Below, piece by piece: positions 15,577 through 20,093 of a stretch of 43,942 nt of DNA. The position numbers and the translations under genes were made by a program. This stretch comes from an uncultured Verrucomicrobia subdivision 3 bacterium (GTDB taxonomy: Bacteria; Verrucomicrobiota; Verrucomicrobiia; Limisphaerales; UBA11358). The notes beneath the pieces were generated by a model that worked only from the letters and a program-made list of their open reading frames with translations, was not told the origin of the DNA and did not search any database. The stretch spans positions 1-43,942 of the forward strand of contig CAILDU010000148.1 in NCBI GenBank assembly GCA_903833055.1, written 5' to 3'. How positions within the stretch are numbered: the first letter of the stretch is position 1; each line of letters begins with the position of its first letter.

Positions 15577-16519
15577 CTCTCGCACCGAAAATTTCACCGT
15601 CGAAGAATCGCTTCCGTCCGAGCGACTCGACATTTTTCTGCGATCCAAATTTCCCGCCGTCTCGCGCGGCGCGATGCAGCGCCTCATCGAGCAAGGCCAC
15701 ATCCGTGTTGATGGCAAAACCGTTAAACCTACGCATTCGCCGCGCGCGGGCGAAAAAGTTGAGATTCATTTTCCCGAACCAAAACCTGCCGCCGCGCAGC
15801 CGGAAGAAATTCCGCTTGATATTTTGTTCGAGGACAAATCGCTGCTCGTCGTCAATAAACCCGCCGGCCTCGTTGTGCATCCCGCCGCCGGTCACGAGGA
15901 ACACACGCTCGTCAACGCCCTACTCCACCATTGCCAAGGTTCGTTGAGCGGCATCGGCGGCGTCGCGCGACCCGGCATCGTCCATAGGCTCGACAAGGAA
16001 ACCAGCGGTTGCCTCGTCGTCGCAAAAAATGACGAGACGCACATTGCGTTGTCGGAACAATTTGCCAATCGCGTGGTGAAAAAAGTTTATCACGCCATCG
16101 TCTGCGGCGAAGTTCCGCGCGACGCGGGCGAGATTCACGCCGCCATCGCGCGCCATCCCACGCATCGCAAACGCATGGCGGTGCAAGATGATTCCGACGG
16201 TCGCGCCGCGCACACGAGCTATCGTGTGTTGGAGAAATTGAAGTGCGCCACCTACGTCGAGGTGCAAATTCACACGGGCCGCACGCATCAGGTTCGCGTG
16301 CATTTCCAGCACCTCGGCCATCCCGTCGTGGGCGATGACACTTACGGCTCGACGAAAAATAAGCGACTGAAAGAACTCGCGAACTACGCCGCGCCGCGCG
16401 TTTTGCTGCACGCGAAGGAATTATCTTTCGTGCATCCGCGCACGCAAAAGCTGGTGAAATTTTCCGCGCCACTGCCGGACGATTTCAAACTCGCGCTGAA
16501 ATTATTAAAGATGAAATAA
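15572..16519 (+). CDS. rluD: 23S rRNA pseudouridine synthase, RluD-type
   Basis: A 315-aa protein. The N-terminal S4 RNA-binding domain (about 17-65, ERLDIFLRSKFPAVSRGAMQ, then IRVDGK) is followed by a RluA-type catalytic domain with LLVVNKPAGLVVHPA, HRLDKETSGCLVVAK (catalytic D141) and HTGRTHQVRVHFQHLGHPVVGD. Length and domain order fit RluD/RluC, which modify helix 69 or other sites of 23S rRNA; I favour RluD. There is no Shine-Dalgarno, and the ATG is inside the inverted repeat. The last 29 codons (HPRTQKLVKFSAPLPDDF...) recur twice downstream at 18535 and 19413. Confidence 0.93.
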   Translation: MSSRTENFTVEESLPSERLDIFLRSKFPAVSRGAMQRLIEQGHIRVDGKTVKPTHSPRAGEKVEIHFPEPKPAAAQPEEIPLDILFEDKSLLVVNKPAGLVVHPAAGHEEHTLVNALLHHCQGSLSGIGGVARPGIVHRLDKETSGCLVVAKNDETHIALSEQFANRVVKKVYHAIVCGEVPRDAGEIHAAIARHPTHRKRMAVQDDSDGRAAHTSYRVLEKLKCATYVEVQIHTGRTHQVRVHFQHLGHPVVGDDTYGSTKNKRLKELANYAAPRVLLHAKELSFVHPRTQKLVKFSAPLPDDFKLALKLLKMK

Positions 16520-16520
16520 T
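16433..16520 (+). repeat. rluD 3'-end repeat, copy 1 (in the intact gene)
   Basis: The last 88 bp of rluD through its TAA. Copy 3 at 19413 aligns without gaps over the full length with about 14 differences. Copy 2 at 18535 aligns over about 68 bp with a one-base insertion. Confidence 0.85.
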
Positions 16521-16634
16521 TCTTGGTTGCCATAATGACATTGCAATGGGGAACCGACCCGCTCAAACTTGTAGCTTGGGCTGACGTGACTCATCAGCTT
16601 TGACCGTTAAATAAAAACTAAAACACGAGCCGCT

Positions 16635-18536
16635 GTGAAGCTCAAAACGCATTCATTTTTCTCTGCCATTATGAATTTTCGCTGGTTAAACGCATTGGTT
16701 TGGGGCAACTCCGTGGCACTCGCCTGGATGTGGGGACTCGGTTTGTTTTTCAGCGTGCAGATGACGTTCATGTTCGGCCTGCAAGGCTTGCTACTGTTCG
16801 CCATTCCGAATGCCGTGGGCCTGATGCTGTTTGGTTTTCTCACGCAGATCGTAGCCAATCGTCATGACGGCGGACGGGAATCGCTGGCAATTTTCTTTGA
16901 TAAATTCGCCAAACCGTTCCGGCTGATTTTTTATCTCTATCAAATCTTGGCGCTCACGCTCACGGTGTTTGCGTTGGCGCGCTATCTGTTCGTGCCGCTG
17001 CAACTCGCGTCCGGCGGACTTTTTGTCATCTACTTGTGCCTGATTGTATTTGTCATTCTCGCGGCGGGTTGTTTGTTCGGCGAAGAATTTGGCATTGAGA
17101 AAATTAAATACAGCCATGCGCTACTCGGCCTGTTACTGCTCGTTTGCGTCGGAATAATTCTGTGCGGCTTGCAACCGTTTCTGCCGGCGAACTTCACTTG
17201 GACCGCGCCATTCCCGAAAGAATGGACCGGCCCGACAATTTACGGTTACGCGATTCCGCTGACGGTCGGCTTGCTGGTTGGGCCGTGGTTGGATTTGCAA
17301 CATTGGCAACGCGCAATTCAAATTCACCGCGAAAACACTTCCATCCGTTTAAGTTATTTTTTTGGCGGCGGCATTTTTTTCCTGATGCTGCTCTTCCACG
17401 GCTGTCTGGCGTTGTGGGTGATGGATAAGCAAGACGCACCGCTGCCCGCCAATGTCGCGCTGGACGGTTTCAAATATGCCCACGATTTAGTGACCCATTA
17501 TTTCATCAACAACTCCGCCGCGTCCGGCTGGATGCCGCTGGCGTATTTTTCGTTCCTTTCGATTTGCGTGCTGACCACGCTGGACAGCGGCTACATCGCG
17601 CTCAAATGGTTTCTCGGCAGCAATGTGGAAAAAAGCCAGAACATGCTTGTCTCGCTCGTTCCCAAACAAATGATCAGCTCGCCGATACCGAGCTTCATGC
17701 TGGTCGGCGTCATCACGCTCGTCGGAATTTTTGCCAAGTTGGAACTGGAATATTTCATGGTCGCCTACGCGTCGTTCTTTGTCGGTTACGCGGCACTGGC
17801 TATCGCCCGCTGCTTTGTGCCGAACTCGCAACAGCCGTTGCCGCAAATCCGCATGATTTCCATGGCCAGCATGTCCATCGTGATTTTTGCGTTTGGTTAT
17901 CTCAACAGCCAGACGCCGCTGCTTTTTTTAGGTTCGTTGCTCCCGCTGATTTACGGCAGTTGGCTTGTGTTTAACACCGACCTGCTGCGCGTCGCCACCG
18001 AGAAAGCCAGCGAAGTGATTGAAGCCGCCGCCGAAATTCCCGCCATCCGCGCGCTGACCCATGCGACCGCCGCCGTGACAAATTCGGAAGTCAAAGCGCC
18101 GGCGGACACTCACGCGCTCGCCGGTCATTTCGAGGGCAAATGGTTTGTCTATTCCATGTTCGCCACTTACGCCGATACCAACTCCGTCGGCAATGTTTAC
18201 TTCGGTATGTATCCAATGTTCGTGGGCAAAACGCGCGAATTATTTTTCAACGCCACGATGCCGAACTTCGATCTCAAAACCACGACGTTTTACATTTTGA
18301 CCCGCAGCTTTGAACACAAATTTATTCGCGAAGCCCGCGAGTTCGACACCATCACCGTGAAAATCCGCATCGCCGAATACAACCGAAAATTCTGCACGCT
18401 CGAACATCAAATCTTCAATTCCGAACACGCCCTGCTGGGCAAAGGCAAGCAATCGCTTTTGTTCGTTTCATCCAAAGATTTCAGCCTGCTCGACATTCCG
18501 CCGGAAGTTTACACCTCGTTCATCCGCTACGCTTAA
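16635..18536 (+). CDS. transporter-like membrane protein fused to a hotdog thioesterase domain
   Basis: A 633-aa protein (GTG 16635, or ATG 16671). Residues ~15-455 carry about 12 membrane helices. A TM8-like segment (LSICVLTTLDSGYIALKWF) recalls the 'TaDS' region of sodium:solute symporters, so an SSS/APC-type transporter fold is likely. After a helical linker (ATEKASEVIEAAAE), residues ~495-630 form a hotdog domain: FATYADTNSVGNVYFGMYP, then VGKTRELFF, a middle FYILTRSFEHKF, and a C-terminal GKGKQSLLFV. The 'ETNxVGNVYF...Y...G..RE.F' pattern is that of CalE7/DynE7-type thioesterases of enediyne and polyene synthesis. The Asn and Arg believed to matter there appear kept. Cargo unknown; a polyketide- or fatty-acyl-linked role is inference. 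It sits between two copies of the rluD tail. Confidence 0.75.
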   Translation: MKLKTHSFFSAIMNFRWLNALVWGNSVALAWMWGLGLFFSVQMTFMFGLQGLLLFAIPNAVGLMLFGFLTQIVANRHDGGRESLAIFFDKFAKPFRLIFYLYQILALTLTVFALARYLFVPLQLASGGLFVIYLCLIVFVILAAGCLFGEEFGIEKIKYSHALLGLLLLVCVGIILCGLQPFLPANFTWTAPFPKEWTGPTIYGYAIPLTVGLLVGPWLDLQHWQRAIQIHRENTSIRLSYFFGGGIFFLMLLFHGCLALWVMDKQDAPLPANVALDGFKYAHDLVTHYFINNSAASGWMPLAYFSFLSICVLTTLDSGYIALKWFLGSNVEKSQNMLVSLVPKQMISSPIPSFMLVGVITLVGIFAKLELEYFMVAYASFFVGYAALAIARCFVPNSQQPLPQIRMISMASMSIVIFAFGYLNSQTPLLFLGSLLPLIYGSWLVFNTDLLRVATEKASEVIEAAAEIPAIRALTHATAAVTNSEVKAPADTHALAGHFEGKWFVYSMFATYADTNSVGNVYFGMYPMFVGKTRELFFNATMPNFDLKTTTFYILTRSFEHKFIREAREFDTITVKIRIAEYNRKFCTLEHQIFNSEHALLGKGKQSLLFVSSKDFSLLDIPPEVYTSFIRYA

Positions 18537-18604
18537 AAGTTTTCCGCCCCGCTTGCCGGACGATTTCAAGCTCGCGCTGAAATTGTTGCGGGTGAAAAAG
18601 TAAT
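18535..18604 (+). repeat. rluD 3'-end repeat, copy 2
   Basis: Starts at the stop codon of the transporter fusion gene. TTTTCCGCCCCGCTTGCCGG, ATTTCAAGCTCGCGCTGAAA and GCGGGTGAAA match the rluD tail, with one extra base in CCCCGCTTG that shifts the frame. It is closer to copy 3 than to rluD itself. The preceding CATCCGC-TACGC at the transporter's 3' end also resembles the repeat start, with a short gap. Confidence 0.7.
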
Positions 18605-18612
18605 CGTGCTGT

Positions 18613-19167
18613 TCACGAAACCAGCCGCCATTCGGATTCCAAACCACGCCGCTGAATCCATTCGTTCAAAGCCGTTCGATCCAGTTGCTCGCCTGAAACC
18701 GCAAGGATGGCGCGGATGTCGCGCAGATGTTTTTCGGCGCGGCCTTCACGATAGTATTCCAGCTTCCGCACGATGACATATTCCGGCGGCGCGAGCATGA
18801 TGGTTTCGCCCTCATATTCCACCGCACGTTTGCCGCGAAACGCCCAAGCATTCAATTCGTCGCGCCCAGTCGGATACATATCGGCTTTGAAGCCGGTGTC
18901 GCGGTGGATGAGATTGAAATGACCGTGCTGTTCCCGCGCCGTTTCGGCCAAGATGGTTTCCAGCGGCGGCAGATAAAATTCTTTTTCGGGGAAAACCGTG
19001 AGCAGCTTCTGAATGTCATTGGCATTTAGAAAAACAATGCAGTCCACATCATGCGTGAGGCGGGGTTCGCCGTAGAAAATGGCGGCCACACTGCCGCTGA
19101 CCACATAACGGATGCCCGCGCGGTTCAGCGGTCGCACAAAAAGCAGGAACAATTCAAGATCGGGCAT
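18613..19167 (-). CDS. nucleotidyltransferase-fold protein (toxin-like)
   Basis: A 184-aa protein with the polymerase-beta/MNT signature: RYVVSGSVAAIFYGEPRLTHDVDCIVFL holds the GS motif and the hD-x-D pair (about residues 20-45). The downstream FKADMYPTG supplies the third acidic position. LAPPEYVIVRKLEYYREG and KHLRDIRAIL match the helical part seen in AbiEii/MenT-like and 'nucleotidyl transferase' defence toxins. Its start overlaps the end of the small gene at 19154 by 14 bp, so the two form one operon. The nucleotidyltransferase-plus-small-partner arrangement suits a toxin-antitoxin or abortive-infection pair. Activity and target are unknown. It lies between rluD-tail copies 2 and 3. Confidence 0.8.
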   Translation of the reverse strand: MPDLELFLLFVRPLNRAGIRYVVSGSVAAIFYGEPRLTHDVDCIVFLNANDIQKLLTVFPEKEFYLPPLETILAETAREQHGHFNLIHRDTGFKADMYPTGRDELNAWAFRGKRAVEYEGETIMLAPPEYVIVRKLEYYREGRAEKHLRDIRAILAVSGEQLDRTALNEWIQRRGLESEWRLVS

Positions 19168-19357
19168 GGCTGAAAATCCGGCGCACCTCGTCGTCCAGGC
19201 GCGGCTCCGGCCAGTCGGGATGCTGGCTGCGCAAGCCCGCCGCTTTCATTTTGCGCGCCGACCAGTAGAGCCGCTCGGCCAGTTGCAGCCGCCGCGCGCC
19301 GGTCATGGCGCGCAACGCCGCAAACTGTTCGGGACTGGTCTGCTCATCCGTCAGCAT
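19154..19357 (-). CDS. small partner of the nucleotidyltransferase (antitoxin-like)
   Basis: A 67-aa, mostly helical, charged protein: SPEQFAALRAMTGARRLQLA followed by ERLYWSARKMKAAGLRSQHP, then EVRRIFSHA. The pattern 'l..m....R..lae.ly..ar......lr..hP......v...' is typical of small proteins found next to nucleotidyltransferases in this phylum. It is first in the operon and overlaps the second gene, the usual antitoxin-first order. No DNA-binding motif is evident. Confidence 0.7.
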   Translation of the reverse strand: MLTDEQTSPEQFAALRAMTGARRLQLAERLYWSARKMKAAGLRSQHPDWPEPRLDDEVRRIFSHARS

Positions 19358-19412
19358 GAAATCATCATGCGCCAGAAAAATGATTCGTGCAAGCGCCGGG
19401 CTTTTGTTGTTT

Positions 19413-19500
19413 CATCCGCGCACGCAGAAGCCGTTGAAATTTTCCGCCCCGTTGCCGGATGATTTTAAGCTCGCGCTGAAATTACTGCGGGTGAAATAAT
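19413..19500 (+). repeat. rluD 3'-end repeat, copy 3
   Basis: CATCCGCGCACGCAGAAG through GTGAAATAAT aligns with 16433-16520 without gaps, about 74 of 88 bases identical. It still encodes HPRTQKPLKFSAPLPDDF...LLRVK and a TAA stop. It has no gene of its own, being the detached tail of an rluD-like gene. It lies between the antitoxin-like gene and the AT-rich ORF at 19515. Confidence 0.85.
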
Positions 19501-19514
19501 AGAAAATAAATCCA

Positions 19515-20093
19515 ATGGAAAATCCTGGAGAAACTCTTGTAGGCGACTATTTAAGATTCGTTCTTGAATGCGACTTTGTTGATTTCAACGTTTACACAAA
19601 AACCGTTCAGGGGGAAATAGACGTGATTGGCATCAACAACACGACAAAGCACGTTTACATTTGCGAGGTGGTTACGCATTTGGCAACTGGTATGCAATAT
19701 ACGAAGGATAAAAGGCCAGATACTGGAGATCGCCTAGCGAGAAAATTTATAAAGGATATTGATTACGGCAAAGTGGCGTTTGAGGGATATGCAAAAACCT
19801 ATATGTTTTGGTCGCCAGTAGTTAAACCTTCAAATGGTAAAGTTGAATACAACCAGTTTCTTCATTTGCAGCAGGCTGTTGATGAAGTAAAGAAAGCGAC
19901 AGGCATTGAGATTAAACGAATCATCAATGAAGATTACGTCAAGGCGATCAATGACCTGCGGGATTTTGCTCAAAAAGAAACCAAGGAATTAAAATCGCCG
20001 ATCATGCGATTTTTACAGATAGAGCATTACGCCACACACAATCTCAAACGCCTCAAGAAAACTAGGTTCATCACCCCGCCGTCAGCCGGATGA
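19515..20093 (+). CDS. possible PD-(D/E)XK-like nuclease, AT-rich
   Basis: A 192-aa ORF. The N-terminal GEIDVIGINNTTKHVYICEV has the 'E..D......h..cE' spacing of the PD-(D/E)XK core seen in restriction-like and Mrr-like enzymes. However, the second motif reads EVVTHL, not ExK, so the catalytic Lys is missing or moved. Then LARKFIKDIDYGKVAFEGYAKTYMFWSP and a helical C-terminus (VDEVKKATGIEIKRIINEDY). It is visibly AT-richer than both neighbours. Its last 23 bp overlap the end of the convergent epimerase gene, so the C-terminus (ITPPSAG) may be borrowed. A recently gained defence-type gene is plausible. Confidence 0.55.
   Translation: MENPGETLVGDYLRFVLECDFVDFNVYTKTVQGEIDVIGINNTTKHVYICEVVTHLATGMQYTKDKRPDTGDRLARKFIKDIDYGKVAFEGYAKTYMFWSPVVKPSNGKVEYNQFLHLQQAVDEVKKATGIEIKRIINEDYVKAINDLRDFAQKETKELKSPIMRFLQIEHYATHNLKRLKKTRFITPPSAG

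Follow-up and report, generated by a model that had tools for sequence, protein, structure and literature searches.

Secondary carriers that are fused to metabolic enzymes are rare, and LplT-Aas is the best known of them. In this system, a lysophospholipid flippase and an acyltransferase/acyl-ACP synthetase are encoded by an operon pair in many bacteria and are fused to each other in some (PMC11416262). Carriers of the SSS/SLC5 family (PF00474; DUR3, NIS, CHT1, SGLT, SiaT) share the LeuT fold, in which TM1 and TM6 are broken, and have conserved core helices, and in the SLC5-STAC sensor kinases (CbrA, CrbS, MxtR) an SSS-like domain is joined to a cytosolic catalytic domain. The enediyne ACP thioesterases CalE7, DynE7, SgcE10 and EspE7 (PF13279; 2w3x, 2xem, 4i4j, 9ccr, 5vpj), finally, have a hotdog fold with the pattern TN(x)2GNVY(F/Y)...GxxRE(x)F, and carry an Asn in the place of an Asp. 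The protein described here has features in common with all these systems, and a literature search found no paper that describes a carrier-thioesterase fusion.

The window, i.e., the whole stretch of 43,942 nucleotides that was analysed, contains an intact open frame at 16635-18536 (+). Nearly all close relatives of its product start at MNFRW, and from this follows that the ATG at 16671 is the likely start rather than the GTG at 16635, so that the fusion gene (16671..18536, +) encodes 621 amino acids. When the full protein is modelled by AlphaFold from an alignment of 40 rows, with the plasmid-collection row left out, the model (pLDDT 80.7) has a 12-TM domain, followed by a floppy linker of about 45 residues and a cytosolic CalE7/DynE7-like hotdog thioesterase. 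The linker (residues 437-483; 17979..18119, +) has pLDDT values below 50 and is disordered at 437-481. The original prediction, that one ORF joins about 12 membrane helices to a C-terminal hotdog, therefore holds: the fusion has a two-domain architecture, where the C-terminus models as a hotdog and the N-terminus has transporter relatives by structure. For both domains, dN is 0.06-0.16 and dS above 1.3 in the two close pairs for which estimates could be obtained.

The thioesterase domain comprises residues 484-621 (18120..18533, +) and matches Pfam 4HBT_2 (PF13279) with 37 bits at a cut-off of 25.5 bits (E 5.5e-9), as do 41/41 members of the fusion family. The best solved relatives of these C-terminal 138 residues are 5vpj, EspE7 (9ccr), CalE7 (2w3x), SgcE10 (4i4j) and DynE7. 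With a profile of 28 relatives, 5vpj is found at 4e-13, DynE7 at 2.5e-12 and CalE7 at 2.6e-11, and other hotdogs, YbgC included, at 1e-6 or weaker; in Foldseek, the hotdog model reaches TMt 0.79-0.86 to CalE7, EspE7, SgcE10 and YbgC. The active-site stretch, YADTNSVGNVYFGMYPMFVGKTRELFFN (residues 500-527; 18168..18251, +), contains N504, Y514, R522 and E523, which are unvarying in 41/41 sequences. The first three of these align to N19, Y29 and R37 of CalE7, and an Asn is present where a catalytic Asp is usual, as in CalE7. By sequence and modelled fold the enzyme half belongs to the CalE7-like hotdogs and is a predicted thioesterase, as was originally claimed. Unlike the enediyne ACP thioesterases, it sits behind a carrier, has its own invariants LTR...H....E and NRK, and lacks a PKS partner in most of the genomes that carry the fusion. 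Hotdog thioesterases are dimers or tetramers, and for this reason the fusion protein probably works as an oligomer. CalE7-like motifs were also seen in a double-hotdog-like protein (L003, G020), the second half of which has ENSNWVGNIYF...RVRDLYF, and in stand-alone thioesterases outside actinomycete enediyne clusters, i.e., L002 (G035) and L035 (Sinorhizobium meliloti pSymA), with TNLVGNVYF and TNVVGNVYF.

The membrane domain (residues 4-435; 16680..17975, +) has no Pfam model, and no noteworthy Pfam or NCBIfam family is found for the first 435 residues of the protein. Modelled alone by AlphaFold it has 12 helices (pLDDT 87.6, pTM 0.89), of which TM1 (19-21) and TM6 (about 208) are broken, and breaks in these two helices are the hallmark of the LeuT fold. 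The top TM-scores in Foldseek (TMq 0.60-0.69) belong to SSS members, with 0.69 for DUR3, 0.67 for SGLT2, 0.66 for NIS, 0.64 for CHT1 and 0.62 for SiaT; members of APC/CCC are below these (TMq 0.42-0.57), although the E-values of some are better (lower) than those of SSS. The model thus identifies the membrane domain as a LeuT-fold carrier, with the SSS/SLC5 family as its nearest neighbour. When profiles are compared by hhalign with home-made SSF, APC and MFS alignments, the membrane-domain profile is colinear with SSF over 283 columns, a statistically weak match (E 0.026, probability 1.9%), and the match to MFS extends over 26 columns and no more. Pfam SSF (PF00474) is not matched by any of 41 members at E up to 5-10, and the extra helix ahead of the LeuT core in SSS proteins (13 or more TM) is absent, since there are 12 helices with TM1a from residue 4; because of these two differences the membrane half is not filed as SSS, from which it is set apart also by its C-terminal enzyme. 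It is nevertheless predicted from its modelled structure to work like an SSS/LeuT-fold carrier. What stands of the SSS/APC-like N-terminus originally proposed is accordingly the carrier fold by structure, and what does not stand is membership of Pfam SSF by sequence.

The sequence motifs of the fold can be followed through 41 sequences, including a Methylorubrum copy that is 33% identical. In the unwound TM1 stretch WMWGLGLF (residues 19-26; 16725..16748, +), where the model is broken at 19-21, residues W19, W21, G22 and G24 are invariant or nearly so. The unwound TM6 motif GPWLDLQHWQRA (residues 204-215; 17280..17315, +) is the putative counterpart of DQxxxQR in SSS, in the register given by hhalign, and its residues P205, W206, D208, Q210, W212 and R214 are kept in 41/41. 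The TM8 motif LTTLDSGY (residues 301-308; 17571..17594, +), an instance of S/T-T-x-x-S, has T303, D305, S306 and Y308 in 41/41, and T302 is T/S in 41/41. The weak SSF alignment puts these TM6 and TM8 motifs on DQxxxQR and MS(S/T)xxS (MSS/MST) of SSS, and we take the TM8 hydroxyls T302/T303, in this register and with PutP and vSGLT in mind, to be a putative Na2 site. Lys and Arg are found on those loops which are cytosolic in the LeuT fold, and by the positive-inside rule this locates the thioesterase in the cytosol.

Relatives of the fusion occur at 242 loci in named genomes, and the best 80 of these loci were read. Among about 90 loci read overall, essentially all complete copies are full-length and fused, and from this follows, together with the number of relatives, that the fusion is no artefact. 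The hosts among the best 80 of 242 are Akkermansiaceae, Luteolibacter, Prosthecobacter, Chthoniobacterales/Spartobacteria, Verrucomicrobiales MAGs and two Apibacter species, and one copy, with about 33% identity, is carried by a megaplasmid of Methylorubrum extorquens AM1. The hosts thus include this genetically tractable strain as well as cultured Luteolibacter and Apibacter. In a sample of 388 genomes of the phylum, the full-length fusion is present in 10, all in the same class, and the genomes that carry a close relative of the membrane domain have it in fused, full-length form in 10/10 cases. The copies from Apibacter (Bacteroidota, insect gut) are nested among those of Verrucomicrobiales MAGs (A. 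mensalis L085, A. muscae L106; L080, L082), which, as we read their names, are presumably of insect-gut origin too, and this suggests cross-phylum transfer of the fusion within insect guts. Among 297 Bacteroidota genomes only the query Apibacter itself was matched, and no copy of the fusion was found in viral contigs (IMG/VR).

The membrane-domain profile also recovers distant relatives of about 395 amino acids without the thioesterase, in another class of the phylum, which the original prediction had not foreseen. These TM-only proteins are homologues of the membrane domain of the fusion (hhalign E 1e-11 over 344 columns; none of the controls against SSF, APC and MFS significant), although they do not keep the TTLDS motif. 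Directly upstream of each TM-only gene, overlapping or abutting it, there is a gene of about 200 amino acids (pairs at L216 5237-7017, L217 5396-7212, L218 5069-6906, L219 5471-7257 and L220 4651-6438). Its product is unrecognised by Pfam and NCBIfam, but by profile it matches proteins of DUF4442 (PF14539), a family of PaaI-like hotdogs such as PA5026 (1sh8), with an hhalign E of 7e-7 compared to 0.1 or worse for control families; for a DUF4442 protein, in turn, the hotdogs PA5026 and PaaI are found as matches. That the partner has a hotdog fold is deduced from the profile match to DUF4442, from whose members it differs in escaping Pfam and in its coupling to a membrane gene. Partner and TM-only gene are present in exactly the same 7/388 genomes, which represent two genera only, and the fusion is in none of these. 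Judged by sequence, a carrier family without a Pfam model is thus linked to hotdogs of two subfamilies by two independent arrangements. That the carrier and its hotdog come either fused or as two genes, as in LplT-Aas, argues for a joint function, and the recurrence of the pairing in many related bacteria suggests that the transport of one molecule is coupled to its release. LplT-Aas differs in that it combines an MFS carrier with acylation, whereas here a LeuT fold goes together with predicted deacylation.

The best guess for this function is hydrolysis-coupled movement of an acyl-derived acid. In the favoured reading, which is held tentatively and with somewhat less than even confidence, an inner-membrane LeuT (SSS-like) carrier tethered to a CalE7-like acyl-thioester hydrolase forms a release-and-move unit. 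Next to the opening of the carrier, the hydrolase would cleave a thioester of ACP or CoA, and the carrier would transport the acid set free in this way, or a compound closely related to it, through the membrane, so that the pair may recycle ACP/CoA or prevent build-up of the free acid. Transport could go outward, as export of the product, or inward, driven by ions and with processing in the cytosol; the Na2-like residues suggest inward ion symport and speak against release followed by export, with which such symport fits poorly. The coupling of transport to thioester hydrolysis is plausible, and the separate pair of carrier and DUF4442-type hotdog adds weight to it. It is possible, with still less confidence, that the coupling is general, i.e., that this LeuT-fold family is always tied to a hotdog acyl-thioester enzyme, as a fusion of CalE7 type or as an overlapping gene pair of DUF4442 type, and that thioester cleavage determines how much of the transported acid is supplied or how steep its gradient is. 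With its repeated pairing with two hotdog subfamilies, this carrier family offers a case in which a metabolic coupling of transport to thioester hydrolysis can be tested.

Consider instead that the LeuT-fold domain is a sensor, which responds to a solute outside the cell or in the membrane by turning the thioesterase on its tether on or off, in analogy with the SLC5-STAC histidine kinases CbrA and CrbS, whose symporter domain is joined to a signalling output. The layout, an SSS-like N-terminus with a cytosolic catalytic C-terminus, is that of CbrA (PMC7918813), and a higher identity among relatives for the thioesterase domain (74%) than for the membrane domain (55%) would also be in accordance with a sensor. 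The carrier core and the Na2-like residues are, however, kept here, while CbrA has lost its Na2 residues (PMC7918813). The output would be a thioesterase and not a kinase, and neither a STAC nor a kinase domain is found by Pfam. The linker, moreover, is unstructured and varies among relatives from 41 to 70 in length, with 28% identity, and would therefore be a poor relay of a signal, and a version on separate chains exists. A sensor is for these reasons unlikely.

Regulation could also go in the reverse direction, with the hotdog binding an acyl-thioester as a signal that gates the carrier, and with hydrolysis slow or irrelevant. Transporters commonly bear cytosolic C-terminal regulatory domains, and the flexible tether would suit such gating, but all positions of the CalE7-type catalytic set are strictly kept, and a domain that only binds its ligand has no need of them, which makes this alternative improbable. 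More doubtful still is that the membrane domain no longer transports anything and only serves to keep at the membrane a thioesterase directed at lipids or ACP. Its divergence from every Pfam family is what an anchor of this kind has in its favour. The conserved residues, on the other hand, are not spread as they could be in an anchor, but cluster in the core helices of the LeuT fold: near-invariant positions are enriched in TM1/3/6/8 (52/120 vs 37/176, Fisher p 6e-5, with positions treated as independent). These are the substrate helices of the fold, and the concentration of near-invariant residues in them therefore indicates that the carrier site is under constraint.

That the enzyme releases the chain of an enediyne or polyene PKS for export by the carrier, a reading to which the original prediction alluded and to which the enediyne thioesterases as closest solved hotdogs and the Asn shared with CalE7 would point, is highly improbable and largely refuted. 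In 7/12 carrier genomes, this one (86% complete) included, there is no match to the type I PKS signature PF16197, so that polyene release is ruled out as a role of the family in general. PKS or polyene genes are also absent among the recurrent neighbours, as the original prediction had remarked for the surroundings of this gene. The genes around the fusion are housekeeping genes without relation to it, the commonest among 80 loci being genes on the opposite strand that we read from their sequences as ispH-like and PpiD-like. No functional partner, operon or biosynthetic cluster recurs beside the fusion among these loci, and an operon or biosynthetic-cluster reading was rejected on this ground. 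LuxR/LuxI-like genes about 6 kb from the fusion in Methylorubrum were judged coincidental.

In the present genome, the fusion lies on a 3.55-kb insert (16522..20074) at a site where sister genomes have about 4 bp between rluD and an SDR gene. The rluD, lspA and SDR genes of the contig are 91-96% identical to those of two sister genomes of the genus, and this rules out an artefact or a misbinned contig. The fusion is present in 0/35 other members of the genus in the sample, which give stand-alone hotdog matches only, and its neighbours in the gene tree, with full support, are copies of 84-85% identity that come for the most part from Akkermansiaceae MAGs. The fusion is not native to the genus, and entered the space between rluD and the epimerase-like (SDR) gene as a horizontal insert. 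The other ORFs of the insert encode a DUF2204-like nucleotidyltransferase, a weak match (18613-19167, -), and an AT-rich product of 192 amino acids without Pfam match (19515-20093, +), and no integrase was found near the insert. The 3' end of rluD, in rluD itself at 16433-16520, recurs twice in direct orientation: as a degenerate copy right after the stop codon of the fusion (18537..18587, +; 88% over 51 nt), and as a second copy after the nucleotidyltransferase gene (19413..19500, +; 84% over 88 nt). Two degraded copies of this kind are expected if DNA was added stepwise at the end of that gene, and the three direct rluD 3' ends look like the result of stepwise, cassette-like insertion there.
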